Origin: Terrabacter tumescens
Lineage (GTDB): Bacteria > Actinomycetota > Actinomycetes > Actinomycetales > Dermatophilaceae
Reading direction: 5' to 3'
DNA length: 36,594 nt
Assembly (NCBI RefSeq): GCF_014646815.1
Contig: NZ_BMNZ01000005.1
Location: forward strand, 143,777-180,370
Of this stretch, positions 133 through 36,562 are shown one piece after another. The position numbers and the translations under genes are program-made. The first letter of the stretch is position 1. Each line of letters begins with the position of its first letter. The notes under the pieces were generated by a model. The model was not told the DNA's origin, did no database searches, and saw only the letters and a list, made by a program, of their open reading frames with translations.

Positions 133-1260
133 TCAGGCGAGCCTCTCCCCGAGCAACTGGAGGGCCTTTCGCTTCTCGTCCAGCGACGTGTGGGCGTAGA
201 TCGTCATCGTCACGTCGATGGCGCTGTGGCCCACGATCTCCTGGACGATGTGCGGCGCGACTCCCTCGGTCAGTAAAAGCGTCACGCATGTGTGCCTCAA
301 GTCGTGAAACCGAGGCAGCGGCTCGGGCAGGACCGTGCGCACCCGGTACCAGCTGCGGCGCAGGTTGTCCGGCTCCATCGGGGTGCCCACCTTTGAGGCG
401 AACACCATGTCCGAGTCGTGCCAGTCGGGACCGGCTGCCAGCCGTTCCTTGCCCTGTGCGAGCTTGTGCGCCTTGAGTGCCTCGACGACCGGGGACGGCA
501 GCGGAACTGTACGTCTGGACTTGCGGGTCTTGGGCGCCTTGAGCTGCAGCTGGCCACCTACACGTTGGAGGCTCTGCACGACCTGGAGAGACTCGGCCTC
601 GAGGTCGACGTGCTGCCACTGCAGGCCCAGGAGCTCGCCCCGGCGAAGCCCTAGGTAGAGCGCAACGACGTAGAGAGCATGCAGCCGCTCCGACTTCGCC
701 GCCTCCAACAGCTTCTTCGCCTCGTCAGGGTTGAGCCCATGGCCGACGACGTACTCGGGTGCCGGGATTTGCACTAGCTTGGCGACGTTGCGGGTCAGGA
801 GCTCGTCGCGCATCGCGTTCTGCAGGCCGGCGCGCAGGACCGCGTGCGCGAACTGGACGCCACGGCGTTGCATGCCCTTGGCCGCGAGGTGCTGACACAT
901 GAGCCGGACGTCGCGGACGGTCAGGGCGCGGAGCTTCTTGTTGCCGATGAGTGGGCCCAGGTGCAACCGCACGACGAGCTCGTACCCCTGGTAGGTCTTG
1001 GGCGCTCGGTTCGGTTTGACCACCGTGTCGAGCCAGTGCTCGAGGTACGCCTGGACGGTCCAGTTCTCGACGGAGACGCGGACGCCGGCGTCGAACTCCT
1101 TCTGCAGGTCGCCCAGCTTCTTGCGGGCCTCTGCGCGTGTGCGGCCATAGACCACGACGCGCTTGCGGCCGCCGGTGTTGGTGTCTGCGTATGTCGCGCC
1201 GACCCATCGGCCCTGCTTCGTCTCGTAGACCGACCCTTCCCCGTTGGCACGCCGACTCAT
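133..1260 (-). CDS. int: Tyrosine recombinase (integrase)
   Basis: This 375-residue site-specific recombinase would integrate and excise the island at a tRNA gene. The catalytic set is present: Arg206 in the GLRRGE motif, His319 and Arg322 in FHDLRHT, His345 in GHS and the nucleophile Tyr355 in MTIYAHT. The N-terminal half has the basic arm-binding and SAM-like core-binding regions of phage-type integrases. The start ATG at 1260 (MSRRANGEG) overlaps the excisionase stop as ATGA, so the two are translationally coupled. A longer reading frame extends upstream but would run through the excisionase gene. The stop lies close to a 24-bp terminal motif. Length and motifs look intact. Its location at one end, with a tRNA 3' part at the other, is the usual AICE arrangement. 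Confidence 0.95.
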   Translation of the reverse strand: MSRRANGEGSVYETKQGRWVGATYADTNTGGRKRVVVYGRTRAEARKKLGDLQKEFDAGVRVSVENWTVQAYLEHWLDTVVKPNRAPKTYQGYELVVRLHLGPLIGNKKLRALTVRDVRLMCQHLAAKGMQRRGVQFAHAVLRAGLQNAMRDELLTRNVAKLVQIPAPEYVVGHGLNPDEAKKLLEAAKSERLHALYVVALYLGLRRGELLGLQWQHVDLEAESLQVVQSLQRVGGQLQLKAPKTRKSRRTVPLPSPVVEALKAHKLAQGKERLAAGPDWHDSDMVFASKVGTPMEPDNLRRSWYRVRTVLPEPLPRFHDLRHTCVTLLLTEGVAPHIVQEIVGHSAIDVTMTIYAHTSLDEKRKALQLLGERLA

Positions 1261-1436
1261 GCCGACTCCTCGACCATGCGCTTGACCATCTCCTCGCATG
1301 CCTGGACGGGCACGAGACGGCGCCGGCCAATCTTGATCGACGCCAGGATGCGCATCCGCATCAGGTCGTAGATCGTCGACCTTGTGACGCCGAGGATCTC
1401 GGCCGCCTCCTCTGGACTCAACAGCAGCTTCTCCAC
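1257..1436 (-). CDS. xis: Excisionase / MerR-type helix-turn-helix protein
   Basis: This 59-residue protein is almost entirely one winged helix-turn-helix of the HTH_17/excisionase type. SPEEAAEILGVTRSTIYDLM is the helix-turn-helix and the following KIGRRRLVP is the wing. Such proteins bend DNA and steer the integrase towards excision. I chose GTG at 1436 because GAGAGGTGA lies five bases upstream. A GTG at 1445 is the alternative. The open frame continues far upstream, but that part is low-complexity shadow of the rep region. The last codons overlap int by ATGA, which is the standard xis-int pair of actinobacterial integrative elements. Confidence 0.88.
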   Translation of the reverse strand: MEKLLLSPEEAAEILGVTRSTIYDLMRMRILASIKIGRRRLVPVQACEEMVKRMVEESA

Positions 1437-23259: not shown

Positions 23260-23583
23260 CTACTGCGCCGCGTCGTATTGCCGCTGAACTGCCTTTGGGA
23301 TTCGGCCACGTGCAGGAATCTCGAGGCCCTCCTTCGCCGCCCACGCACGGATGAGCGCATTTCTCGAGTCCCCCACTGCCTTGATGTTGCGCCGGGCACC
23401 CGTCCGGTTCCCAATCTGCCGAGCTTTGCCTGCCCACGCCGCGACGGTTACGCGCAGCGCCTCCGCATTCTTGCTGCTGAGGTCGATCTCGTAGGTAGTG
23501 CCGTCTAGAGCGAAGGTCAAAGTCTCCGCCGCTTCGGTGCCATCCACGTCGTCAACAAGGGTGGTGATCAACTTTGTTGCCAT
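23260..23583 (-). CDS. lsr2: Lsr2-family nucleoid-associated protein
   Basis: This 107-residue protein has the Lsr2 layout. The N-terminal oligomerisation domain starts MATKLITTLVDDVDGTEA and includes TLTFALDGTTYEIDLSSKNA. The C-terminal DNA-binding domain ends IPARGRIPKAVQRQYDAA with the RGR AT-hook-like loop. Lsr2 bridges DNA and silences AT-rich foreign genes. A copy on a mobile island may mute the island's own cargo after transfer or interfere with host Lsr2. TAGGCT six bases upstream of ATG 23583 suggests a leaderless message. Confidence 0.93.
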   Translation of the reverse strand: MATKLITTLVDDVDGTEAAETLTFALDGTTYEIDLSSKNAEALRVTVAAWAGKARQIGNRTGARRNIKAVGDSRNALIRAWAAKEGLEIPARGRIPKAVQRQYDAAQ

Positions 23584-24989: not shown

Positions 24990-25187
24990 GTGACCGAGCA
25001 CTGGGTGTCTGCCGACGTGATCGCTGAGCACCTCGGCGTGACCAAGGACAGCATCTACGTCTGGATCGCCAACAGGGAGATGCCCGCTCACAGGGTCGGG
25101 CGGCTGTGGAAGTTCCAGATCACTGAGGTGGACGCGTGGGTGCGCGGTGCCGGCGCGCCCGACGCCGCCGACGAGAAGCTCGACTGA
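24990..25187 (+). CDS. Excisionase-type HTH protein heading the defence operon
   Basis: This 65-residue MerR/excisionase-type winged HTH protein has SADVIAEHLGVTKDSIYVWI as the helix-turn-helix. HRVGRLWKFQITEVDAWVRG is the wing and last helix. GTG 24990 is the only start giving a compact HTH domain and has a -10-like TAACCT seven bases upstream. Its stop TGA overlaps the helicase ATG (TGATG), so translation is coupled. It is a second excisionase-like protein, distinct from the one beside int. Here it more likely controls the operon or guides it to DNA than acts in excision. That role is inferred from position. Confidence 0.85.
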   Translation: MTEHWVSADVIAEHLGVTKDSIYVWIANREMPAHRVGRLWKFQITEVDAWVRGAGAPDAADEKLD

Positions 25188-28100
25188 TGAGGATCATCGA
25201 CAACCTCAACGAACTCCTCGGCGACGATCTAAGGGGCTCAATTAAGCCCGGGTCAAGGCTGCGGATCGCGGCAAGCACGTTCTCGATCTTCGCCTACGAG
25301 GCGCTGAAAGATGAACTCCAGTCGATCAAGGAGCTGGAGTTCATCTTCACGTCGCCGTCGTTCACAACGGCGAAGGCGACCGACAAACCTGCGGCGGAGA
25401 AGCGGCAATTCTTCATCCCGAACGACAAGAACCGGGATGCCGCGCTGTACGGCACCGAGTTCGAGATCCGCCTGCGGAACAAACTGACCCAGCGCGCCAT
25501 CGCGCGGGAGTGCGCGGAGTGGGTGCGGCAGAAGGTCACCTTCCGCTCGAACCGCACGGGCGCACCGATGCAGTCGTTCGCCGTGGTCGACGACACCGCC
25601 GCATACGCCCCGCTCCAAGGCTTTACGACAGCTGACCTCGGCTATGAGCGAGGACCGGCCGTGTCGAACATGGTGCACAAGATCGATGATGCGCCGTTCA
25701 CGCAGCAGTACATCCAGCTCTTCGACCAGATCTGGCACAACCCCGACCAGGTCGAGGACGTGACGACGGCCGTACGCGAGCACATCGCCAGCGTGTACGC
25801 GGAGAGCTCCCCGCAACGGGTGTACTTCCAGATTCTGTTCAACCTGTTCAGCGAGTTCCTCGACGACATCAGCGAAGACGTGCTGCCCAACGACCTGACT
25901 GGCTACCAACAAACCGAGGCCTGGAAAGCCCTGTACAACTTTCAACGGGATGCTGCGACCGGCGTGATCAACAAGCTTGAGACCTACAACGGCTGCATCC
26001 TCGCCGACAGTGTGGGCTTGGGGAAGACGTTCACGGCGCTGGCGGTGATCAAGTACTACGAGCTGCGCAACAAGACCGTGCTCGTCCTGGCGCCGAAGAA
26101 GCTCGCCGACAACTGGACGAACTACAACAGCAACTACACGACGAACATCTTCGCCAAGGACCGCTTCAGCTACGACGTCCTCGCCCACACCGACCTATCG
26201 CGCGACGGCGGCGCGTCGCTAGGCAAGCGGCTCGATCTGATCAACTGGGGCAACTACGACCTCGTCGTGATCGACGAGTCACACAACTTCCGCAACGCCG
26301 ACTACGTGCAGGATCGCGAGACCCGCTACCAGCGGCTGATGCGCAGGGTCATCCGCGAGGGCGTGAAGACCAAGGTGCTGATGCTGTCGGCGACCCCGGT
26401 GAACAACCGGTTCAACGACCTGCGCAATCAGCTCGCCTTGGCCTACGAGGGCGAGTCGGCGCAACTCGCTGCAAAGCTGAACATCCAGACGGGGATCGAG
26501 GAGATCTTCCGGCAAGCTCAGCGCGTCTTCAACGAGTGGTCCGACCTGCCGCCCGAGGAACGCACGACGGAAGCGATCCTTGCCCGGCTGGACTTCGACT
26601 TCTTCGAACTACTCGACGCGGTGACCATCGCCCGCTCCCGCAAGCACATCCAGGCGTTCTACGACACCACGGACATCGGCCTATTCCCCGAGCGACTAAA
26701 GCCCGCCTCGCTGCGACCGCCCCTCACCGACCTGGCCGAGGCGCCTACATTCAACGAGATCTTCGAGCAACTCCAGCTCCTGACGCTCGCTGTTTACACG
26801 CCCTTGGCGTACGTGTTCCCGAGCCGACGCGACAAGTACGAATTGATCTACGGGGCCGGGTCGGGCCAGAACTACATGGGCGGGGAGACCGCAAACCTCG
26901 GTGCGGCCAGCCGCGAGCAGGGCATCCGCAAGCTCATGACCGTGAACCTGCTCAAGCGGCTGGAATCCAGCATTCAAGCATTCCGGCTGACGCTGAACCG
27001 TCTCGAGTTCACGCTCGCCGAGGCGATCGAGGCCGTCGACAACCACACCGCAAACATTGCAGACATCGTTTCCGCGTTCGCCGACATCGACGCTGACGAT
27101 GACGACTTTGAGTTCCCGACGAGCGGGAGTGTCGGCCGGAAGGTTCAGATCGACCTGGCCGACATGGATGTCGACTCGTGGAGCCTCGACCTTATAAACG
27201 ACCGCAAGGTCATCCAACAGCTCCTCGCCTCGATCAGCGGCATCACTCCCGAGCGCGACTCGAAACTGGGCACGCTACGCGAGCTCGTCTCCGGTAAGTT
27301 CGCCGAGCCGCTGAACCCCGGTAACCGCAAGGTGCTGATCTTCTCCGCCTTCGCCGACACGGCCGAGTACCTCTACAAGAACCTCGCCCCAGTGCTGAAG
27401 CAGCATGGCTATGACAGCGCCCTCGTCACGGGCCAGGGCCACCCATCCACGACGGTCGGCAAGGGCTACGGCTTCCAGCAGACCCTCACGCTGTTTTCGC
27501 CCCGGTCGAAGCAGCGGCACCTCGTGATGCCCAAGGAGTCCTCCGAGATCGACGTCCTCATCGGCACCGACTGCATCAGCGAGGGTCAGAACCTTCAAGA
27601 CTGCGATTTCCTCGTCAACTACGACATCCACTGGAACCCGGTGCGGATCATTCAGCGGTTCGGTCGCATCGATCGCATCGGCTCGACCAATGAGCGCATC
27701 CAGCTCGTCAACTTCTGGCCGGACATCTCCTTGGACGAGTACATCAACCTCAAGGAGCGCGTCGAGAACCGCATGGTCATCGCCGACCTTGCCGCGACCG
27801 CCGATGACAACGTGCTCACCCAAGAGGCCAGCGACGCGGCCTTCCGCAAGGAGCAGCTTCGTAAGCTCCAGGACGAAGTCATCGAACTCGAAGACGTCCG
27901 CACGGGTGTATCGATCACTGACCTTGGCCTGAATGACTTCCGCATGGACCTGCTCGGCTACATCAAGGAGTACGGCGATCTGGCCGGCACCCCGAAGGGC
28001 ATACACGCCGTCGTGCCCGCGGACAGCGACAAGGGCCTCAAGCCAGGTGTCCTGTTCGTGCTGCGCAACATCAACGCCGACGAGCACATCAACCGTGGCA

Positions 28101-28459
28101 ACCGCCTCCACCCGCACTACCTCGTGTACCTCGGCGAACGGGGCGAAGTAATCGCCGACCACACCGAGGTCAAACACCTTCTCGACCTGGTCCGCGCCGG
28201 ATGCCGCAACCGCGACGAACCAGCCTGGGAGGTTTGCCGCGTCTTCAACACCGCCACCCGCGACGGTGCCGACATGGCCAAGTACAGCCACCTGCTCACC
28301 GAGGCGATCCGCTCCATGGTCGACGTCACCGAGGAGCGCGACGTCGACAGCCTCTTCAGCGCCGGGCACACCACCGCCCTTGTGCAGACCATCGCCGGGC
28401 TCGACGACTTCGAGCTGATCGCCTTCCTTGCCATCGTCGAGGAGCCCGCCGGTGCCTGA
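25187..28459 (+). CDS. SNF2-like helicase with degenerate PLD-like N-terminal domain
   Basis: This 1090-residue superfamily 2 ATPase would translocate on DNA as the motor of the defence operon. The N-terminus (residues about 1-175) looks like a phospholipase D-type fold: SRLRIAASTFSIFAYEAL, then ELEFIFTSPSF. I see no HxKxxxxD motif, so this domain is probably inactive as a nuclease and may bind DNA. The helicase has motif I ADSVGLGKT (Lys280), DESH (363-366), LSATPVNNRF, motif V GTDCISEGQNLQDCD and motif VI QRFGRIDRIGS (from Gln823). The C-terminal 250 residues are a helical and beta region without a known motif. ATG 25187 is coupled to the HTH gene by TGATG. A longer open frame upstream would overlap that gene. 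The end overlaps the DUF4391 gene. Confidence 0.9.
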   Translation: MRIIDNLNELLGDDLRGSIKPGSRLRIAASTFSIFAYEALKDELQSIKELEFIFTSPSFTTAKATDKPAAEKRQFFIPNDKNRDAALYGTEFEIRLRNKLTQRAIARECAEWVRQKVTFRSNRTGAPMQSFAVVDDTAAYAPLQGFTTADLGYERGPAVSNMVHKIDDAPFTQQYIQLFDQIWHNPDQVEDVTTAVREHIASVYAESSPQRVYFQILFNLFSEFLDDISEDVLPNDLTGYQQTEAWKALYNFQRDAATGVINKLETYNGCILADSVGLGKTFTALAVIKYYELRNKTVLVLAPKKLADNWTNYNSNYTTNIFAKDRFSYDVLAHTDLSRDGGASLGKRLDLINWGNYDLVVIDESHNFRNADYVQDRETRYQRLMRRVIREGVKTKVLMLSATPVNNRFNDLRNQLALAYEGESAQLAAKLNIQTGIEEIFRQAQRVFNEWSDLPPEERTTEAILARLDFDFFELLDAVTIARSRKHIQAFYDTTDIGLFPERLKPASLRPPLTDLAEAPTFNEIFEQLQLLTLAVYTPLAYVFPSRRDKYELIYGAGSGQNYMGGETANLGAASREQGIRKLMTVNLLKRLESSIQAFRLTLNRLEFTLAEAIEAVDNHTANIADIVSAFADIDADDDDFEFPTSGSVGRKVQIDLADMDVDSWSLDLINDRKVIQQLLASISGITPERDSKLGTLRELVSGKFAEPLNPGNRKVLIFSAFADTAEYLYKNLAPVLKQHGYDSALVTGQGHPSTTVGKGYGFQQTLTLFSPRSKQRHLVMPKESSEIDVLIGTDCISEGQNLQDCDFLVNYDIHWNPVRIIQRFGRIDRIGSTNERIQLVNFWPDISLDEYINLKERVENRMVIADLAATADDNVLTQEASDAAFRKEQLRKLQDEVIELEDVRTGVSITDLGLNDFRMDLLGYIKEYGDLAGTPKGIHAVVPADSDKGLKPGVLFVLRNINADEHINRGNRLHPHYLVYLGERGEVIADHTEVKHLLDLVRAGCRNRDEPAWEVCRVFNTATRDGADMAKYSHLLTEAIRSMVDVTEERDVDSLFSAGHTTALVQTIAGLDDFELIAFLAIVEEPAGA

Positions 28460-29144
28460 GGCTGCCCAGACGCCGGTCCTCTTCCGGTGGCCTCCAGCTG
28501 CCGCGTTCGGGCGCACCGTGCCGAAGACGAAGTTCTACGAACACGGCAACGTCCGCGCCGGGCTTCGCGAGAAGTTCGTCGAGGAGATTCAACGCGTCGC
28601 TTGGGCCTACAAGCTCGCGGACGACACCATTCACCTGCGCGGCACGACCTCAGTGCCCGAGATCCAGGTCTTCATCGTCGAAACCAAGGGCGCGGACGTC
28701 TCCGACGACGTCCTCACCGCCATCGACAAGACGGTGCACTTCCCGATCGTCTTCGAGGTCGCCAGCGGCGACCGAGTGCGTACCGTTGCCGCCCAGAAGT
28801 CTCTACACGACAGGTCCCCTAGGATCGGCACCTACTTCACCACCGGCTGGCAAGCCGCCGACGCCCAGCGCCGACCTCTGCCCAGCGCACTCGACCTACC
28901 TGGCCTGTATGAGGCGATCCTCACGGCTCTGCTGCCAGTAGCGACGCGCGCTGGCGAGACAGTGGCGACAGCGACCGTCAGGCTAGACCGAGCCCGAAAA
29001 CTTCAGCGCGAGATAGCCGCACTGGAGAAGACGTTGCGCACCGAACCACAACTCAACCGCAAGATCGAACTCCGGAGGCAGATCAAGCAACGCACGGTAG
29101 TGCTCACCGGGCTGATTGATCCCGCACCGACCAATAAGGAATGA
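28452..29144 (+). CDS. DUF4391 protein
   Basis: This 230-residue protein matches the DUF4391 family. Shared blocks are the start VLFRWPPAAAFGRTVPKTKF, then EIQRVAWAYKLADDTIHL, EIQVFIVE, DVLTAIDKTVHFPIVFEV, and a Lys/Arg/Leu-rich helical C-terminus that looks like a coiled coil (KLQREIAALEKTLR). Biochemical function is unknown. The family is recurrently found between a PLD/SNF2-type helicase and a DNA methyltransferase in defence islands, which is the order here. GTG 28452 follows GAGGAG and overlaps the helicase end by eight bases. The stop overlaps the next ATG (ATGA). It may be an adaptor between the helicase and the modification enzymes. Confidence 0.87.
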   Translation: MPEAAQTPVLFRWPPAAAFGRTVPKTKFYEHGNVRAGLREKFVEEIQRVAWAYKLADDTIHLRGTTSVPEIQVFIVETKGADVSDDVLTAIDKTVHFPIVFEVASGDRVRTVAAQKSLHDRSPRIGTYFTTGWQAADAQRRPLPSALDLPGLYEAILTALLPVATRAGETVATATVRLDRARKLQREIAALEKTLRTEPQLNRKIELRRQIKQRTVVLTGLIDPAPTNKE

Positions 29145-31111
29145 CCGTGGACAAGCTCCAGATGCGCTCGCCAGATCTCACCCAGCGCAAGATCGACCAC
29201 ATCGCCGAACTGTTTCCCACGGTCGTCACCGAGACCCTCGACGCCGACGGCAACCCCATCCGCGCTGTCGACTTCGACGCACTCCGCCAAGAGCTCTCCA
29301 ACCACATCGTCGAAGGACCCCAGGAGCGGTACCAACTCGACTGGCCCGGCAAGCGTGCCGCCGCCTTGGCCGCCAACGCGCCGATCGCGATGACGCTGCG
29401 CCCCGTGCGCGAGGAATCGATCGACTTCGATACGACTAAGAACCTCTTCATCGAGGGGGACAACCTGGAGGCACTCAAACTCCTCCAAGAGTCGTACCTC
29501 GGCAAAGTCAAGGTCATCTACATCGACCCTCCGTACAACACCGGCAACGACTTCGTCTACGACGACGTCTTCGCCGAGTCGAGCGCTGACTACCTCGCCC
29601 GTTCGGGCCAGAAGTCGGAAACGGGCGACCGCCTCGTCGCTAACACCGAGGCGAACGGCCGATTCCATTCCGACTGGCTCAGCATGATGTACTCCCGGCT
29701 GAAGCTCGCGCGTGGCCTGCTGACCGACGACGGGATCATCATCACCGCGATCGGCGACCACGAGCATGCGAACCTCCGCCTACTCCTCGATCAGGTCTTC
29801 GGGGCCCAGAACTTCATCTCAGACGTCGTGTGGCAAGGCGGTCGCAAGAACGACTCACGCTACGTATCCAACGGCGCGGACTACATGCTCATCTACGCGA
29901 AGAACGAGACGCAGCTGAGCGAGCTCGGTGTGCGGTGGCGAGAGCCCAAGGTCGGTCTCGACACGGCGTTGGCGAAAGCCGCATCGATTTGGTCGACCCG
30001 TCAGAGCGACGACGACGCCTCCGTCCAGTGGAAGGCCTGGCTGAAGAGCAAGAAGACCGCCGGTGAGATCACCGATTCGGTAGCGCGGTACGACCAGCTT
30101 CAGTCCGGGACGGGCCGACCGATGAACACCTACGGCAACATCACGTGGCCCGGCCGAGGCGGGCCCAGATACGAGGTTCTCCATCCGACGACGCGGAAAC
30201 CGGTGTCGCTTCCGAAGACCGGCTGGCGCTTTCAGAATGACGAGATGGATCGTCGGATCGCGGCGGGACAGATCTGGTTCGGCGCGGACGAGACAGCGAT
30301 CCCTCGTGGGATCTCCTTCCTTGACGAGACCAACGAGCAGGTTGCGATCTCCGTGTTCGAGCAGGACCGCAAGGCCGCTAGCACCGACATGCGCAACCTC
30401 ATGGGCGAGATCGTCTTCGAGAATCCCAAGGACCGGCGCGTCCTTGCGCGTTGGATCCGTCTCGTCACCGGGGGGACGAAAGACGCCGTCGTCCTAGACT
30501 TCTTCGCTGGCTCTGGCTCGACTGGCCACGCCGTCATGGACCTCAATGCGCTAGATGGCGGGGATCGCCGATACATCCTTGTCCAGCTTGACGAGGAGGT
30601 TCACCACCCTCACTACGACACCATCGCGAGTATCGCCCGTGAACGCCTGCGCCGCGCCGGCGTACAGGCGAAGCAGGCTGCTGGGCTGCTGGGCGCGGAT
30701 CTCGACGTAGGCTTCCGATCGTTACACGTGGCGACGACCAACATGGCTGACACCCTCGCGACCCCGGACGACCTGACGCAGTACGCGCTCTCCGAGGCAG
30801 TCGGCAGCGTAAAGCCCGACCGCACCGACGAAGACCTGCTCTTCCAGGTGCTGCTCGACTGGGGACTCGATCTCGCTGAGTCGATCATGGCCGAAGACAT
30901 CGGTGGCCGACGAGTGCTGTCCGTCGCCGATGACGCTCTGGTTGCGTGCTTTGCCGACGAGGTCACCGACGCCATCGTGCAGCACATTGCCAACAGGCAC
31001 CCGCTGCGTGCCGTGTTCCTGGATGCGGGCTTCCCCAGCGACGCCGCGCGGATCAACGCCGAGCAGTTCTTCCGCGAGGTGTCACCCGAGACAGAGGTAA
31101 GGGCGATCTGA
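29141..31111 (+). CDS. mod: Type III-like DNA methyltransferase (Mod)
   Basis: This 656-residue methyltransferase should modify a short DNA sequence and protect the host. It is a beta-class enzyme: motif IV IDPPYNTGND (Asp129-Pro-Pro-Tyr132) precedes motif I DFFAGSGSTGH (453-463). The DPPY motif and architecture are those of N6-adenine/N4-cytosine enzymes, and with an adjacent res gene adenine is the likelier target. The target-recognition region lies between, about residues 230-420. The C-terminal 120 residues form an extension. The start ATG at 29141 overlaps the DUF4391 stop by ATGA. It is full length with no visible breaks. The res gene begins four bases after it. Confidence 0.95.
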   Translation: MTVDKLQMRSPDLTQRKIDHIAELFPTVVTETLDADGNPIRAVDFDALRQELSNHIVEGPQERYQLDWPGKRAAALAANAPIAMTLRPVREESIDFDTTKNLFIEGDNLEALKLLQESYLGKVKVIYIDPPYNTGNDFVYDDVFAESSADYLARSGQKSETGDRLVANTEANGRFHSDWLSMMYSRLKLARGLLTDDGIIITAIGDHEHANLRLLLDQVFGAQNFISDVVWQGGRKNDSRYVSNGADYMLIYAKNETQLSELGVRWREPKVGLDTALAKAASIWSTRQSDDDASVQWKAWLKSKKTAGEITDSVARYDQLQSGTGRPMNTYGNITWPGRGGPRYEVLHPTTRKPVSLPKTGWRFQNDEMDRRIAAGQIWFGADETAIPRGISFLDETNEQVAISVFEQDRKAASTDMRNLMGEIVFENPKDRRVLARWIRLVTGGTKDAVVLDFFAGSGSTGHAVMDLNALDGGDRRYILVQLDEEVHHPHYDTIASIARERLRRAGVQAKQAAGLLGADLDVGFRSLHVATTNMADTLATPDDLTQYALSEAVGSVKPDRTDEDLLFQVLLDWGLDLAESIMAEDIGGRRVLSVADDALVACFADEVTDAIVQHIANRHPLRAVFLDAGFPSDAARINAEQFFREVSPETEVRAI

Positions 31112-31115
31112 CCTG

Positions 31116-34100
31116 ATGAAGCTCCAGTTCAAGGTCCAGCAGTACCAGACCGAGGCCGTCGATGCCGTGGTCGACGTGTTCACCGGGCAGCCGTATGCCG
31201 ACGGGGTGAAGTACCGCATCGACCCGGGCAAGGAGGCGGCGATGACCTTGCTGGAGGACGCGGGCCTGCGCAACGCTGCGATCGCGCTGACGCCACCGCA
31301 GCTGCTGACGAACGTCCACCGGGTGCAGCAGGCGCGCGGGCTAGAGTTGTCAAAGGATCTGAGAGACCCGGTCAAGAAGTCGGCGGCCCCAATCAATCTC
31401 GACATCGAGATGGAGACCGGCACCGGCAAGACCTATGTCTACATCAAGACGATGATGGAGCTTCACAAGCGGTACGGGTGGTCAAAGTTCATCGTGGTCG
31501 TACCGTCCGTCGCGATCCGCGAGGGGGTGAAGAAGTCGTTCGACATCACCGCCGAGCATTTCCAGCACTTCTACGGCACCAAGCCGCGCGCATTCATCTA
31601 CAACTCCTCACGGCTGCACGAGCTGGAGCGGTTCTCGTCCGACTCGGGCGTGCAGGTGATGATCATAAACATCCAGGCGTTCAACGCCACTGGCAAGGAC
31701 GCCCGCCGCATATACGAGGTGCTTGACGACTTCCAGTCCCGCAGACCCATCGACGTGATAGCGGCGAACCGACCGATCCTCATCATCGACGAGCCACAGA
31801 AGATCGAGGGCGATGCGAAGAAGCCGTCGAAGTCGTTGGAGGCGCTCGGGTTGTTCAACGCCCTCTTAGCACTGCGGTACTCGGCCACGCACAAGATCGA
31901 GCGCACCAAGGTGCACCGCCTCGACGCGGTCGACGCCTACAACCAAAAGCTCGTGAAGAAGATCGCGGTGCGCGGCATCACGGTCAAGAACTTGGCCGGC
32001 AGCAGCGCCTACCTGTACGTCGACGGGCTAGAGGTCGGCAAGGGAACAGAATTCCCAAAGGCTAGGGTCGAGCTGGAGGTGCAGACCGCCCAAGGCATCA
32101 AGCGGCAGGTGAAGCGCCTGAGCCGTGGCATGAACCTGCATGACATCTCCGGCGGCATAGAGGCATACAAGGGCCTGTTCATCCGCGACGTCGACGCCAA
32201 TCGCGACATTGTCGAGCTGAGCAACGGCGACATCGTCAGCGCAGGTGAGGTCACCGAGGACGTCGCTGAGGACCAGAAGCGACGCATCCAGATTCGCGAG
32301 GTCATACGAGCCCACCTCGACAAGGAGCGCGAGCTGTTCGCGCAGGGCATCAAGACGCTGTCGCTGTTCTTCATCGACGAGGTCGCCAAGTACCGAGACT
32401 ACGAGCGCGACGACACGCTCGGCGAGTACGCGCGCGTCTTCGAGCAGGAGTACCAGGCGGTGCTCGACGACTACCTCGGCCAGCTCGACTTCGACGAGGC
32501 CGCCGAGCGATACCACAAGCACGTCGAGGCGATACCGGTGCGCTCGACACATGAGGGCTACTTCTCGATCGACAAGAGGACCGGCCGCTCCATCGACGGC
32601 AAGATCGCCGCGCGCGGCGACTTCGCCGGTCAGTCGGACGACGTCGACGCGTACGACCTGATCCTCAAGGACAAGGAGCGGCTGTTGTCGTTTGAGGAGC
32701 CAGTGCGATTCATCTGGTCGCATTCGGCGCTGCGCGAGGGCTGGGACAACCCGAACGTATTCGTGATGGGGATGCTCAAGAAGAGCGACAGCACCACCAC
32801 GCGGCGACAGGAGATCGGCCGCGGGCTGCGGCTGTCAGTCGACCAGCACGGCGAGCGAATGGACAATCCGGTCACCGTGCACGAGATCAACGAACTGACC
32901 GTCGTGACCGACGAGTCCTACACCGACTACGTCACTGCCCTGCAGAAGGAGATCGTCGAGTCGCTGTCGGCCCGGCCGCGCAAGGCGAGCGTCGACTACT
33001 TCACTGGAAAGCAATTCAAGCTGGCCGACGGTTCAACGAGCGTGCTGGAGAAGGCGGTGGCCCAGGCGCTCTACAACCACCTGATCCGTCACGACTACAT
33101 CGACGATGACGGCCTGGTCACGCAGGCGTACAAGGACGCCCGCACTGACGGCACCCTCGCCGCACCGACCGCCGAGGTGCTCAAGCCGGTGATCGACTTC
33201 GCCTGGCCGCTCGTCGATGCGCTATACCTCGACGTTCCCAAGCCGATCGATGGCCGCAAGCCGAAAAAGATCCCGCTAAACGAGGCCAACTTCACGAAGC
33301 GCGAGTTCCAGGAGCTGTGGAGCCGCATCAGCCACAAGGCCGTCTACCAGGTCGAGTTCGACTCCGCCGAATTGATCCGCAACTGCATCCGTGTTCTCGA
33401 CACATACCTGAACGTCACCGTCATGCAGTACCTCGTCGAGACAGGCAAGCAGCTCGTGGGCCTCGAAGTCGAGCAGCTCGAAGCAGGAACCGGTTTCAAG
33501 GTGTCTGAGACGAAGGTCGAGCACTCGGCCGTGTCAGCGGGCTCGACGGTCGAGTACGACCTCCTCGGCGAGATCGCGGAGAAGACCCAGCTCACCCGCC
33601 GGACTTGCGCGGCAATCCTTGCGGGCATTAACCCCGGCACGTTCGCAAAGTTCAAGCAGAACCCCGAGCAGTTCATCACCGAGACCGCCCGGCTCATCAA
33701 CGAGCAGAAGGCCGCGGTGATCGTGGAGCACCTCAGCTACGACCCTCTCGACAACCGCTACGACTCCTCGATCTTCACCGAGAACCAGACCGCCCAGGAC
33801 CTGTCGAAGGTGGGCCAGAAACTGAAGAAGAGCGTCTACGAGTACGTCGTCACCGACTCGAAGGTCGAGAGATCGTTCGTCGAGCAGCTCGACGTGTCCG
33901 CCGAGGTCGTCGTTTACTCCAAGCTGCCGCGCGGGTTCTTCATCCCGACACCGGTCGGCGACTACAACCCCGACTGGGCCATCGCGTTCCGAGACGACGT
34001 CACGCAGCTCAAGCACGTGTACTTCGTCGCCGAGACCAAGGGCTCCATGTCAACGCTCCAGCTCAAGGGTGTCGAAAACGCCAAGATCGAGTGCGCCCGC

Positions 34101-34199
34101 AAATTCTTCGCCTCGCTCAACGGCAAGGCCGAGCACGACGGTGTGAAGTACGAAGTAGTCGACAGCTACTCCAAGCTCATGGACCTTGTAACGGAGTAA
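31116..34199 (+). CDS. res: Type III-like restriction subunit (Res)
   Basis: This 1027-residue helicase-nuclease would cut unmodified DNA. The motor has motif I METGTGKT (99-106), motif II DEPQ (225-228), LRYSATH and, further on, motif VI EIGRGLRL. The C-terminal PD-(D/E)XK nuclease has YNPDW (Asp953), then VAETKG (Glu973, Lys975). These motifs are all intact, so it is expected to be active. Like EcoP15I/EcoP1I Res proteins it would act together with the Mod subunit encoded just upstream, four bases away. ATG 31116 is the only good start. What the added helicase and DUF4391 gene do in this complex is unknown. Confidence 0.95.
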   Translation: MKLQFKVQQYQTEAVDAVVDVFTGQPYADGVKYRIDPGKEAAMTLLEDAGLRNAAIALTPPQLLTNVHRVQQARGLELSKDLRDPVKKSAAPINLDIEMETGTGKTYVYIKTMMELHKRYGWSKFIVVVPSVAIREGVKKSFDITAEHFQHFYGTKPRAFIYNSSRLHELERFSSDSGVQVMIINIQAFNATGKDARRIYEVLDDFQSRRPIDVIAANRPILIIDEPQKIEGDAKKPSKSLEALGLFNALLALRYSATHKIERTKVHRLDAVDAYNQKLVKKIAVRGITVKNLAGSSAYLYVDGLEVGKGTEFPKARVELEVQTAQGIKRQVKRLSRGMNLHDISGGIEAYKGLFIRDVDANRDIVELSNGDIVSAGEVTEDVAEDQKRRIQIREVIRAHLDKERELFAQGIKTLSLFFIDEVAKYRDYERDDTLGEYARVFEQEYQAVLDDYLGQLDFDEAAERYHKHVEAIPVRSTHEGYFSIDKRTGRSIDGKIAARGDFAGQSDDVDAYDLILKDKERLLSFEEPVRFIWSHSALREGWDNPNVFVMGMLKKSDSTTTRRQEIGRGLRLSVDQHGERMDNPVTVHEINELTVVTDESYTDYVTALQKEIVESLSARPRKASVDYFTGKQFKLADGSTSVLEKAVAQALYNHLIRHDYIDDDGLVTQAYKDARTDGTLAAPTAEVLKPVIDFAWPLVDALYLDVPKPIDGRKPKKIPLNEANFTKREFQELWSRISHKAVYQVEFDSAELIRNCIRVLDTYLNVTVMQYLVETGKQLVGLEVEQLEAGTGFKVSETKVEHSAVSAGSTVEYDLLGEIAEKTQLTRRTCAAILAGINPGTFAKFKQNPEQFITETARLINEQKAAVIVEHLSYDPLDNRYDSSIFTENQTAQDLSKVGQKLKKSVYEYVVTDSKVERSFVEQLDVSAEVVVYSKLPRGFFIPTPVGDYNPDWAIAFRDDVTQLKHVYFVAETKGSMSTLQLKGVENAKIECARKFFASLNGKAEHDGVKYEVVDSYSKLMDLVTE

Positions 34200-34208
34200 G
34201 GACCAACG

Positions 34209-36068
34209 GTGACCGAACTAGACCGCACCATCGATGGCGTCGCCAAGACGATCGCTGAAGTACTCGAGAAGAAGAAGTACTCGATCGACTACTACCAGCG
34301 CGAATACAAGTGGGAGTCGAAGCAGATCGCAGAACTCGTAGCTGACCTCACGGCCAAGTTCCTCGACCTCTACGAGCCTGACCACGCCCGCAAAGATGTG
34401 GCCAAGTACGCCGGCTACTATCTCGGCTCGATCATCATCTCCCAGAAGGGGAGCCAGCCGTTCATCGTTGATGGACAGCAACGACTCACCAGCCTGACCC
34501 TTTTCCTTACCTACCTCCGAAGGCTCCAGCAGGGGCGCGAAGAGGTGGTCAACATTGACGAGCTCATCTACTCTGAGAAATTCGGCGAGAAATCGTTCAA
34601 CCTCGACGTCCCTGACCGTAACGACTGCATGGAGGCCCTGTTCGAGTCTGGCGAGTACGAGGTGCCCCCGGACGCGGCGGAGTCGGTTCACACGTTGGTC
34701 GCGAGGTATTCGGAGCTCGATGGGCTGTTCCCTGATGAGTTGAAGGAAGCAGCGCTGCCGTTCTTCATCGACTGGCTGAAGGACCGGGTGCAACTCGTTC
34801 AGATCACGGCGTACAGCGACGACGACGCTTACGCGATCTTCGAGACCATGAACGACCGTGGATTGAAGCTCACCCCGGCCGACATGCTCAAGGGGTACTT
34901 GCTCGCCAACATGGAGGACGGCAAGCCCCGCACCAAGGCCAACGACCTCTGGCGCAAGCGTCTGCGGGGCTTGGACGAGCATGCGGAGGACGCGAGCTCA
35001 GACTTTCTCAAGACCTGGCTCCGGAGCCAATACTCGACGAAGATTCGCGAGCGTAAGAAGGGCGCAAGACCAGAGGACTGGGACCGCATCGGCACTGAGT
35101 TCCACCGTTGGCTCCGAGGGGCGCACGACAGCGTGGGCCTGAAGTCGCACGACGCCTTCTACCAATTCGTCGTCCGCGACCTCGACTTTTACAGCCATCA
35201 CTATGCCCGGATCCTCGACGCGTCCGCCGGCACGTTTAAGTCGGACAGCCCTCTTCGGTTCATTCGCTTCAACGCGGACCTGGGGTTCACCCTGCAGAAC
35301 CAACTGCTCCTTGCCCCGCTGTGCGTCGACGACAACCTGCCCGTCATTGACCGAAAGCTGGAGATCGTCGGCCGATTCACAGACACCCTGCTTGCTCGCC
35401 GCATCTGGAATTTCCGCTCGACGGCGTACTCAACGATGCAGTACGCCATGTTCACCGTCATGCGCGACATTCGTGGCCTCAGTACGGACGCACTCGCGAC
35501 GGTCCTCCGAGATTATCTGCTGAAGATCGATGAGTCCTTCGACTACGACGGCCTATACGTGCACCAGCAGAATCGGAGCCAGCTCCACAAGATCCTTGCC
35601 CGGATCACCGACTACGTCACCGTCAGCGCGGGCCAGGCGTCCAACTACATCGAACTCACCAACGGTGCGAAGGTGAAGTACGAGGTTGAGCACATCTGGG
35701 CCGACCACCCCGAGCGGCATACCGACAACTTCAGCCACGAAGCTGACTTCGCCCGCCACCGGAACCGAATCGGTGACCTGCTCCTGCTCCCCAAGCAGTT
35801 CAACGCCAGCTACAACGACGAGACCTACGCGCAGAAGCGCCCGAGGTACTTCAGCCAGAACCTGCTTGCCGCCAGCCTGGATCCTCAGGCCTACGAGAAG
35901 AACCCAGGATTCCTGGCCTTCGTCAAGCAGTCGGGTCTACCGTTTCACGCCCACGAGGAGTTCAAGGCCGCTGACATCATCGAGCGTGGGGATTTGTACA
36001 GGGACGTCGCGAAGCGGCTGTGGAACCCTGACGACCTCGTCGCTCTCGCGACGAGCAGCGAGCCGTGA
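34209..36068 (+). CDS. GmrSD-type DUF262/DUF1524 nuclease
   Basis: This 619-residue protein fuses the DUF262 (GmrS-like) and DUF1524 (GmrD-like) domains. DUF262 has DYYQREYKW near residue 27 and the DGQQR motif (88-92) used for NTP-dependent activity. The C-terminal DUF1524 domain has the HNH-like VEHIWADHP (His495) and RNRIGDLLLLP (Asn519), followed by FNASYNDETYAQKRPRYF. GmrSD enzymes are type IV restriction nucleases that cut modified, for example glucosylated-hydroxymethyl, phage DNA. GTG 34209 is nine bases after the res stop, with AGGA upstream. It is the last gene of the operon. The combination suggests that both unmodified and hypermodified phage DNA are targeted. Confidence 0.92.
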   Translation: MTELDRTIDGVAKTIAEVLEKKKYSIDYYQREYKWESKQIAELVADLTAKFLDLYEPDHARKDVAKYAGYYLGSIIISQKGSQPFIVDGQQRLTSLTLFLTYLRRLQQGREEVVNIDELIYSEKFGEKSFNLDVPDRNDCMEALFESGEYEVPPDAAESVHTLVARYSELDGLFPDELKEAALPFFIDWLKDRVQLVQITAYSDDDAYAIFETMNDRGLKLTPADMLKGYLLANMEDGKPRTKANDLWRKRLRGLDEHAEDASSDFLKTWLRSQYSTKIRERKKGARPEDWDRIGTEFHRWLRGAHDSVGLKSHDAFYQFVVRDLDFYSHHYARILDASAGTFKSDSPLRFIRFNADLGFTLQNQLLLAPLCVDDNLPVIDRKLEIVGRFTDTLLARRIWNFRSTAYSTMQYAMFTVMRDIRGLSTDALATVLRDYLLKIDESFDYDGLYVHQQNRSQLHKILARITDYVTVSAGQASNYIELTNGAKVKYEVEHIWADHPERHTDNFSHEADFARHRNRIGDLLLLPKQFNASYNDETYAQKRPRYFSQNLLAASLDPQAYEKNPGFLAFVKQSGLPFHAHEEFKAADIIERGDLYRDVAKRLWNPDDLVALATSSEP

Positions 36069-36517: not shown

Positions 36518-36562
36518 CTGAAAATCGGAAGGTCGGCGGTTCGACCCCGCCCCTGGCCACCA
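36518..36562 (+). other. attR: 3' part of a tRNA gene, probably tRNA-Phe(GAA)
   Basis: From CTGAAAA (anticodon loop, GAA) the sequence follows a tRNA to its end: 3' anticodon strand TCGGA, variable loop, T-arm GGCGG-TTCGACC-CCGCC, acceptor strand CCTGGCC, A73 and an encoded CCA. Just upstream the sequence does not pair as a 5' anticodon stem (TCCGA would be needed), so only the 3' part is present. This is the usual product of integration into a tRNA gene. The intact copy should lie left of the window. Confidence 0.75.

Follow-up and report, generated by a model that had tools for sequence, protein, structure and literature searches.

The window analysed here, 36,594 nucleotides of the Terrabacter tumescens genome (contig NZ_BMNZ01000005.1), carries near its right end an operon of six genes, all of them open reading frames on the plus strand. 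They encode a small helix-turn-helix protein (HTH), an SNF2-family helicase (HEL), a DUF4391 protein, the methyltransferase (Mod) and restriction subunit (Res) of a type III restriction enzyme, and a GmrSD-type nuclease. On balance, and judging from the sequences, HEL, DUF4391, Mod and Res appear to constitute a single system against invading DNA: a type III enzyme plus a second motor, which DUF4391 would couple to the methylase, while Res would do the cutting. Textbooks present type III restriction as the work of two genes. Many loci of this Res family also carry the conserved second motor and DUF4391, and the four-gene variant is widespread and apparently unnamed. The initial annotation of the window had taken all six genes as a composite, in which a second helicase and DUF4391 extend type III restriction and the GmrSD nuclease is an integral second line. 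The first part of that reading stands; the second is not supported.

If the helicase and DUF4391 were only rarely accompanied by Mod and Res, a single system would be hard to maintain. They are regularly together. Among 396 genomes from the window's phylum, a sample not selected for the helicase, 13 have DUF4391. HEL (at E ≤ 1.2e-160) is found in 12 of these 13 and in no other genome of the 396, and all 13 have Mod next to DUF4391 or, in some cases, one gene away. Res lies within the fetched stretch in 11 of the 13; in one of the other two the contig is cut, and the second is G346. In G346 (L025, L169) Res is about 137 kb away from HEL-DUF4391-AAA-Mod on the same contig and is preceded by a Mod fragment; this is a rearranged or shuffling system.

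The same association was seen when the search was centred on the helicase, with one genome taken per species and the best 80 of at least 583 confirmed matches retained. One row (L022) of the first HEL profile was off-frame, but the profile still scores HEL above 1,000 bits. HEL, DUF4391, Mod and Res follow in this order on one strand in 62 of the 64 loci that have 9 kb or more downstream and in 11 of the 16 with less (73/80 overall). The exceptions with room are L092, with neither Mod nor Res, and L116, with a Mod fragment only. These loci span Actinomycetota, Pseudomonadota, Acidobacteriota, Planctomycetota, Verrucomicrobia, Spirochaetes, Bacteroidota and others, and the recurrence of one gene order across so many phyla is beyond chance. 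Four of the six plasmid loci opened, that of Methylotuvimicrobium alcaliphilum among them, have annotated HEL, DUF4391, Mod and Res; in a Listeria plasmid the DUF4391 place is taken by an unnamed protein of 185 aa, and a Desulforapulum plasmid keeps just a Res fragment. Viral contigs yielded 77 loci, 49 of them with at least 8.5 kb of room, and all four genes are present in 40 of the 49. Four of the nine others with room belong to the sister systems described below. Mod is absent from the viral-contig locus L314, and in L237 the order is permuted to Mod, Res, HEL, DUF4391 with all four kept.

The four proteins were compared in 57 loci for motif retention, pairwise identity and distance correlations. 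Barring rare single residues, HEL, Mod and Res retain their catalytic motifs throughout: the ATPase motifs of HEL, DPPYN of Mod and GTGKT of Res are present in all 57 loci, as are E and K of the PD-ExK nuclease, whose D is present in 56. HEL is the best conserved of the four, with a median pairwise identity of 65%, followed by Res (60%), Mod (49%) and DUF4391 (40%).

The N-terminus of HEL provides a more specific connection with type III partners. It is labelled PLD-like because sister helicases with PLDc_2 above cut-off (4/4 scanned) align with HEL along this whole region. The label, already used in the initial annotation, survives through these sisters, although the domain is invisible to Pfam in the window protein (0 families); PLDc_2 was detected in 2 of 33 HEL relatives, with a best E of 0.0049. 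The H-x-K of the HKD motif is absent from the window protein, whereas the sisters retain it together with a GSSNFT-like motif. All 32 type III-linked HEL proteins sampled, and one linked to Res only, have a dead HKD, and it is intact in 17 of 17 sisters beside an Eco57I-like methylase. That methylase was assigned by Pfam in six of the 17 and, in the other eleven, with a profile made from four of the six. The state of HKD matches the type of partner in all 50 helicases sampled. On a tree of the SNF2 part, with the N-terminus left out, the split needs two changes, some branches being long and the root uncertain.

The pattern holds in a larger set of 177 helicases, the window included. H-x-K is missing in 140 of 141 complete type III loci, the sole match (L259) being a chance one just ahead of the motif column, and in 20 of 20 partial loci. 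Of 16 helicases without a partner in view, eight were flagged intact (L297 by a chance match) and eight were not; seven of the unflagged ones are on contigs that end with HEL, and L242, intact in another alignment, was lost from this one. A plain H-x-K search of 101 helicases gave six matches, all judged from context to lie outside the motif column. The PLD domain of HEL was therefore rejected as an active nuclease, since H and K are missing. Foldseek with the HEL model gave SNF2 and other SF2 ATPases among the 50 matches listed, so the sequence was used to judge the N-terminus; its profile had no PDB match better than E 0.28.

The sister systems pair the HKD-SNF2 helicase with one large methylase. 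In four viral contigs the helicase lies beside a methylase of 1,200-1,560 aa with an Eco57I domain; it adjoins Eco57I-domain genes in the two loci scanned from the window's own phylum, and homologues of the viral-contig methylases in genomes of a Bacteroidota sample (the phylum of G397). No Mod, Res or separate DUF4391 gene was found in the fetched stretches of these systems. Three own-phylum genomes with weak HEL matches (E 1e-62 to 3e-68) also proved to have sister helicases. The loci with an Eco57I-class or homologous methylase beside an HKD-SNF2 helicase are L300, L301, L303, L313 and L410-L417, and HKD is intact in them wherever the helicase N-terminus is complete. In L301, the one sister locus scanned for it, an AAA ATPase gene follows the methylase.

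The sisters also bear on DUF4391. The window protein is a clear member of PF14335 (150 bits). Its model, of high confidence (predicted local distance difference test, pLDDT, 93.8), shows an alpha/beta domain and a long helical hairpin; searches of the PDB and of BFVD gave no fold match to it at E ≤ 0.001, and the best sequence match in the PDB has E 0.92. Four proteins from the DUF4391 place matched no PADLOC model (the window protein at E 0.001, three others at 1e-20). A nuclease was considered and rejected, there being no invariant nuclease-like residue set, no fold match at that threshold and no PDB sequence match better than the one at E 0.92. Three of the four sister methylases scanned do have a PF14335 match towards the N-terminus; these matches (E 9e-5 to 1e-3) stay under the family threshold. 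When profiles were first compared, four sister rows gave E 2.9e-4 and a probability of 41%. A profile of 13 sister methylase N-termini against 89 DUF4391 rows gave P 5.5e-5 over 89 columns and a probability of 66%, and ten control comparisons (reversed columns, four other methylase pieces, and five pieces of HEL, Mod and Res) gave P 0.0079 to 0.73. It is probable that DUF4391 and the sister methylase N-terminus share a domain, which would be a separate gene in the type III form and part of the methylase chain in the sisters. Together, the HKD switch and this DUF4391-like segment offer a first testable role for DUF4391, and they would link type III restriction to DISARM/BREX-like helicase systems.

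HEL and DUF4391 are the tightest pair of genes, within 30 bp of each other in 68 of 76 cases. Inserted genes open gaps of more than 300 bp between DUF4391 and Mod in 11 of 72 and between Mod and Res in 24 of 61. In L116, the locus with a Mod fragment only, a 721-aa frame (L116:13279-15441) contains DUF4391 and is a possible fusion.

How the four proteins might work together can be outlined. From their intact motifs and their homology to EcoP15I, Mod would mark host DNA at recognition sites and Res would cut once Mod meets unmarked sites. HEL is likely to be an SNF2-type motor on double-stranded DNA, in which loss of the PLD nuclease motif would leave a non-catalytic, probably DNA-holding domain. 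DUF4391 may serve as coupler between HEL and the methylase complex, a role proposed because a DUF4391-like segment lies within the sister methylase chain. After an unmarked site has been met, HEL-DUF4391 would probably drive or remodel Mod-Res along the DNA so that Res can cut. According to passages of one account, efficient cleavage by known type III enzymes needs two inversely oriented (head-to-head) unmethylated sites, and methylation is on one strand (PMC3874151); the EcoP15I structure is also relevant here (PMC4490356). HEL-DUF4391 perhaps lets restriction work where plain type III enzymes, bound to the two sites, fail. GmrSD would be a swappable back-up effector. A broader proposal, which we offer tentatively and with some doubt, is that of a distinct and widespread two-motor, ATP-dependent restriction class: an HKD-SNF2/methylase system would have been joined to Mod-Res, the nuclease role passing to Res from the PLD domain, which then decayed, with DUF4391 kept as the coupler and the second motor lifting the two-site need.

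The main rival assigns HEL-DUF4391 to modification or self-protection. The pair would be needed for methylation by Mod, or would shield half-marked host sites from Res after replication, and would have no direct role in cutting. SNF2 helicases of this superfamily do recur beside adenine methylases, as the PADLOC cross-matches of HEL to DrmD, BrxHI and HmaA indicate; a DrmD-class helicase lies beside Mod-Res in L160, L161, L166 and L208, an Eco57I-class methylase lies beside the sister HEL, and the DUF4391-like segment is within the chain of a methylase. Against this, the distances of HEL and DUF4391 among loci track those of Res more than those of Mod. The partial distance correlations are 0.60 for HEL-DUF4391, 0.44 for HEL-Res, 0.26 for DUF4391-Res and -0.04 for DUF4391-Mod, the distances of Mod following their partners least, values that are suggestive only since the pairs are not independent. 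Canonical type III Mod methylates without helpers. The sister helicase itself bears an intact nuclease motif and is therefore on the restriction side there. We consider a role in modification unlikely.

The second rival is the six-gene composite of the initial annotation; GmrSD would be built in as a second line, directed at phages whose DNA is modified. GmrSD lies just behind Res in the window, and its chain has both domains, PF03235 (GmrSD_N, DUF262; 116.2 bits, cut-off 33.2) and PF07510 (GmrSD_C, DUF1524; 36.7 bits, cut-off 23). A close relative occupies the same place in Blastococcus (L085, 1275 bits), and weaker ones do so in L130 (148 bits) and L131 (145 bits). However, among 76 accessory open reading frames (75 from 51 of the 80 loci plus the window GmrSD) GmrSD_N was found in only six, the window included, a count slightly low because the GmrSD of L085 was filtered out of the scan. 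Other effectors fill the same slots: SLFN_AlbA_2 (14), RhuM (5), 23S-IVP (4), SIR2_2 (3), Bro-N (3), Mrr (2) and Fic (2). The nearest relatives on the Res tree (L091, L080, L095) show no match to the window GmrSD behind Res. GmrSD is swappable cargo, one of many back-ups, and its inclusion as an integral part is highly improbable. The HTH gene is not fixed either: a homologue is detectable within 400 bp upstream in 22 of 78 loci. The window HTH matches PF12728 (42 bits) and scores 57.8 bits against NF047737, the HTH of MAD1, below the cut-off of 80, and so falls outside that MADS family.

Another possibility is that HEL-DUF4391 and Mod-Res are two independent systems travelling together as defence cargo. 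The view from Mod and Res bears on this. Mod matches PADLOC MTase_III (662 bits) and EcoP15I Mod (E 2.9e-67); Res matches REase_III (1035 bits), PF19778 (111 bits) and EcoP15I Res (E 5.4e-63), with the PD-ExK end aligned. In the 396 own-phylum genomes there are 23 strong PF19778 loci (E < 1e-17). Ten have HEL and DUF4391, one has DUF4391 only, three have a DrmD-class SNF2 helicase (581-678 bits; L160, L161, L166), and nine have neither HEL nor DUF4391 in the fetched stretch, three of these on contigs shorter than 8 kb. A second sample, of 369 genomes from the class of G396 (the Pseudomonas genome of L130), gave 28 strong loci: seven with HEL and DUF4391 (including the centre genome and L220, where HEL is in fragments), one with DUF4391 at a contig edge, and one with a DrmD-class helicase recognised by a custom profile (L208). 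In sum, Mod-Res often occurs without HEL, and HEL-DUF4391 hardly occurs without Mod-Res.

The absence of HEL from many Mod-Res loci, the free insertion of accessory genes and the general tendency of defence genes to cluster in islands would all suit two independent systems. But HEL-DUF4391 is hardly found without Mod (L092, L116 and L314 are exceptions), the gene order is kept across phyla, even the permuted L237 has all four genes, and the loss of HKD follows the type III partner in every helicase sampled. We give this possibility little credence. Least credible is an ordinary type III system with passenger genes: Mod and Res do bear the motifs of EcoP15I, but passengers would decay, whereas HEL is the best conserved of the four, and the Res proteins of HEL loci belong to lineages far from P1 Res.

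These lineages are seen in a Res tree of 74 rows, made by a quick method and with several long branches. Thirty-six of the 44 HEL-DUF4391 rows fall in one clade of 42, which also holds four cut or unknown rows, one without HEL-DUF4391 and one with DUF4391 only. The other eight belong to an adjacent set of 25 that includes DrmD-type and plain rows, and P1 Res is far from the HEL-linked lineages. The loci with a DrmD-class SNF2 helicase, Mod and Res (L160, L161, L166, L208), in which no DUF4391 was found, form a second composite. The DrmD models of PADLOC may also catch type III-linked helicases. Five loci (L083, L088, L110, L153, L024) have two full-length Mod genes ahead of one Res, perhaps two specificities sharing one cutter. 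L085 was also counted as having two Mods but looks like one split Mod, and L222 has several Mod frames and no HEL.

Several observations weigh against the view that the four genes form one system coupled through DUF4391. Both genes of the pair are missing in 19 of the 28 loci of the second Res sample, eight of these on contigs ending at Mod or Res, and the fetched P1 stretch has mod and res with neither. In L222 and L213 Res lies inside HEL-type lineages with no HEL; G380 (L026) has DUF4391, Mod and Res, also without HEL; and the viral-contig locus L306 has HEL and Res only. The best-80 sample leans to near relatives. The likeness of DUF4391 to the sister methylase is moderate in both comparisons, and hmmsearch gives single sequences weak domain scores, with none for sister methylases that are further removed. 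DUF4391 distances track HEL and Res rather than Mod, a poor fit to direct contact with Mod. The HEL model is itself middling (pLDDT 68.8).

It remains to compare the operon with known systems. At the level of genes it belongs with type III: it has a Mod with N6/N4 methylase motifs and an adjoining Res with SF2 ATPase and PD-ExK. As in EcoP15I and EcoP1I, Mod has DPPY, and homology extends over most of both subunits; the window operon differs in adding HEL and DUF4391, and its Res is of other lineages. HEL matches the PADLOC candidate family C3a139 ('HKD+Snf2') with 425 bits over residues 167-1082, a family matched at near full length in L019 and L020. The HKD-SNF2/Eco57I-like sisters differ in their intact HKD, which HEL lacks, and in their one large methylase.

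The DISARM core is DrmA and DrmB with a DISARM methylase. The initial annotation had noted a likeness to DISARM, and at the superfamily level it is there: DrmD is a related SNF2 helicase, and methylase, helicase and PLD recur as a theme. It goes no further. HEL falls short of both NCBIfam cut-offs for DrmD (142 bits against 610, 91.5 against 950), on which membership was rejected, its PLD domain is without catalytic H and K, and the window operon has a true type III Res. Among the best 25 PADLOC families for each of the six proteins there is no DrmB or DrmMI, and DrmA appears as a 65-bit cross-match of HEL. For MADS, apart from the sub-threshold HTH, just a 20-bit mad2 cross-match of Mod is among the families listed by PADLOC. 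BREX-related (BR) type 2 systems share the HKD-SNF2 helicase and N6-methylase, and an exchange of HKD for another nuclease has been described for them; as presented in the relevant passages, they are centred on a DUF499 ATPase and DUF3780 (PMC12839542). Neither of these two is among the Pfam matches of the six operon proteins, and neither DUF4391 nor ResIII occurs in the main text of that paper. The sixth gene has both domains of type IV GmrSD and is accessory in this operon. ARMADA, YprA-based in the part of its description consulted (PMC12458937), was set aside, as no YprA-named family is among the matches listed for the window proteins.

Scattered precedents exist, here taken from portions of the sources. 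In a 2008 paper, type III-like helicases from MORC operons are noted to have HKD where the nuclease would normally be (PMC2292703); DUF4391 appears in a single paper of the library searched, on an unrelated topic, as a row in a comparative-genomics table (PMC7784981); and one island carries a type III REase together with a Mod-family methylase and an SNF2 helicase, no system being named (PMC12757443). No passage describing this gene set as a system was found among the matches listed from the open-licence literature; one may be printed elsewhere. The earlier failure to match the whole set to a named system was thus repeated in the libraries searched.

The operon itself is confirmed as first described: six plus-strand genes, with three overlaps and then two short gaps, at coordinates that agree (Table 1). 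Pfam families above cut-off are HTH_17 (HTH), SNF2 and Helicase_C (HEL), DUF4391, N6_N4_Mtase (Mod), ResIII and RE_endonuc (Res), and GmrSD_N and GmrSD_C (GmrSD).

Table 1. Features of the operon and its flank, in window positions; gene starts are those chosen in the initial annotation and are putative.
Feature	Position	Strand	Junction with preceding gene	Description
HTH	24990..25187	+		Small HTH_17 protein (excisionase/MAD1-like), GTG at 24990; probable regulator, variable part
HEL	25187..28459	+	1-bp overlap (HTH stop at 25187 = first base of ATG)	SNF2-family motor, 1090 aa; PLD-like N-terminus (~residues 1-240) without HKD catalytic H and K
DUF4391 protein	28452..29144	+	8-bp overlap	230 aa; alpha/beta domain and long helical hairpin (predicted); proposed helicase-methylase coupler
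Mod	29141..31111	+	4-bp overlap	Type III DNA methyltransferase, 656 aa; DPPY motif intact
Res	31116..34199	+	4-bp gap	Type III restriction subunit, 1027 aa; SF2 ATPase and C-terminal PD-ExK nuclease (~nt 33825-34163)
GmrSD	34209..36068	+	9-bp gap	Type IV nuclease, 619 aa; accessory cargo outside the core
Right attachment site copy	36531..36562	+		32 bases, 3' end of tRNA-Phe

Practically the whole window (contig positions 143777-180370) consists of an integrative element, about 36.6 kb long and inserted in tRNA-Phe(GAA), whose final cargo before the right attachment site is the operon. An integrase-like frame, named by eye, is at window 133-1299. The element also carries, at 23260-23583 on the minus strand, a gene recognised by eye that we take to encode an Lsr2-like silencer. 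The genome has two copies of the 32-base attachment pattern, separated by 36.6 kb; two bases of the left one are masked. No tRNA was called at the right copy; the left copy is the 3' end of an intact tRNA-Phe (L177:1456-1530).

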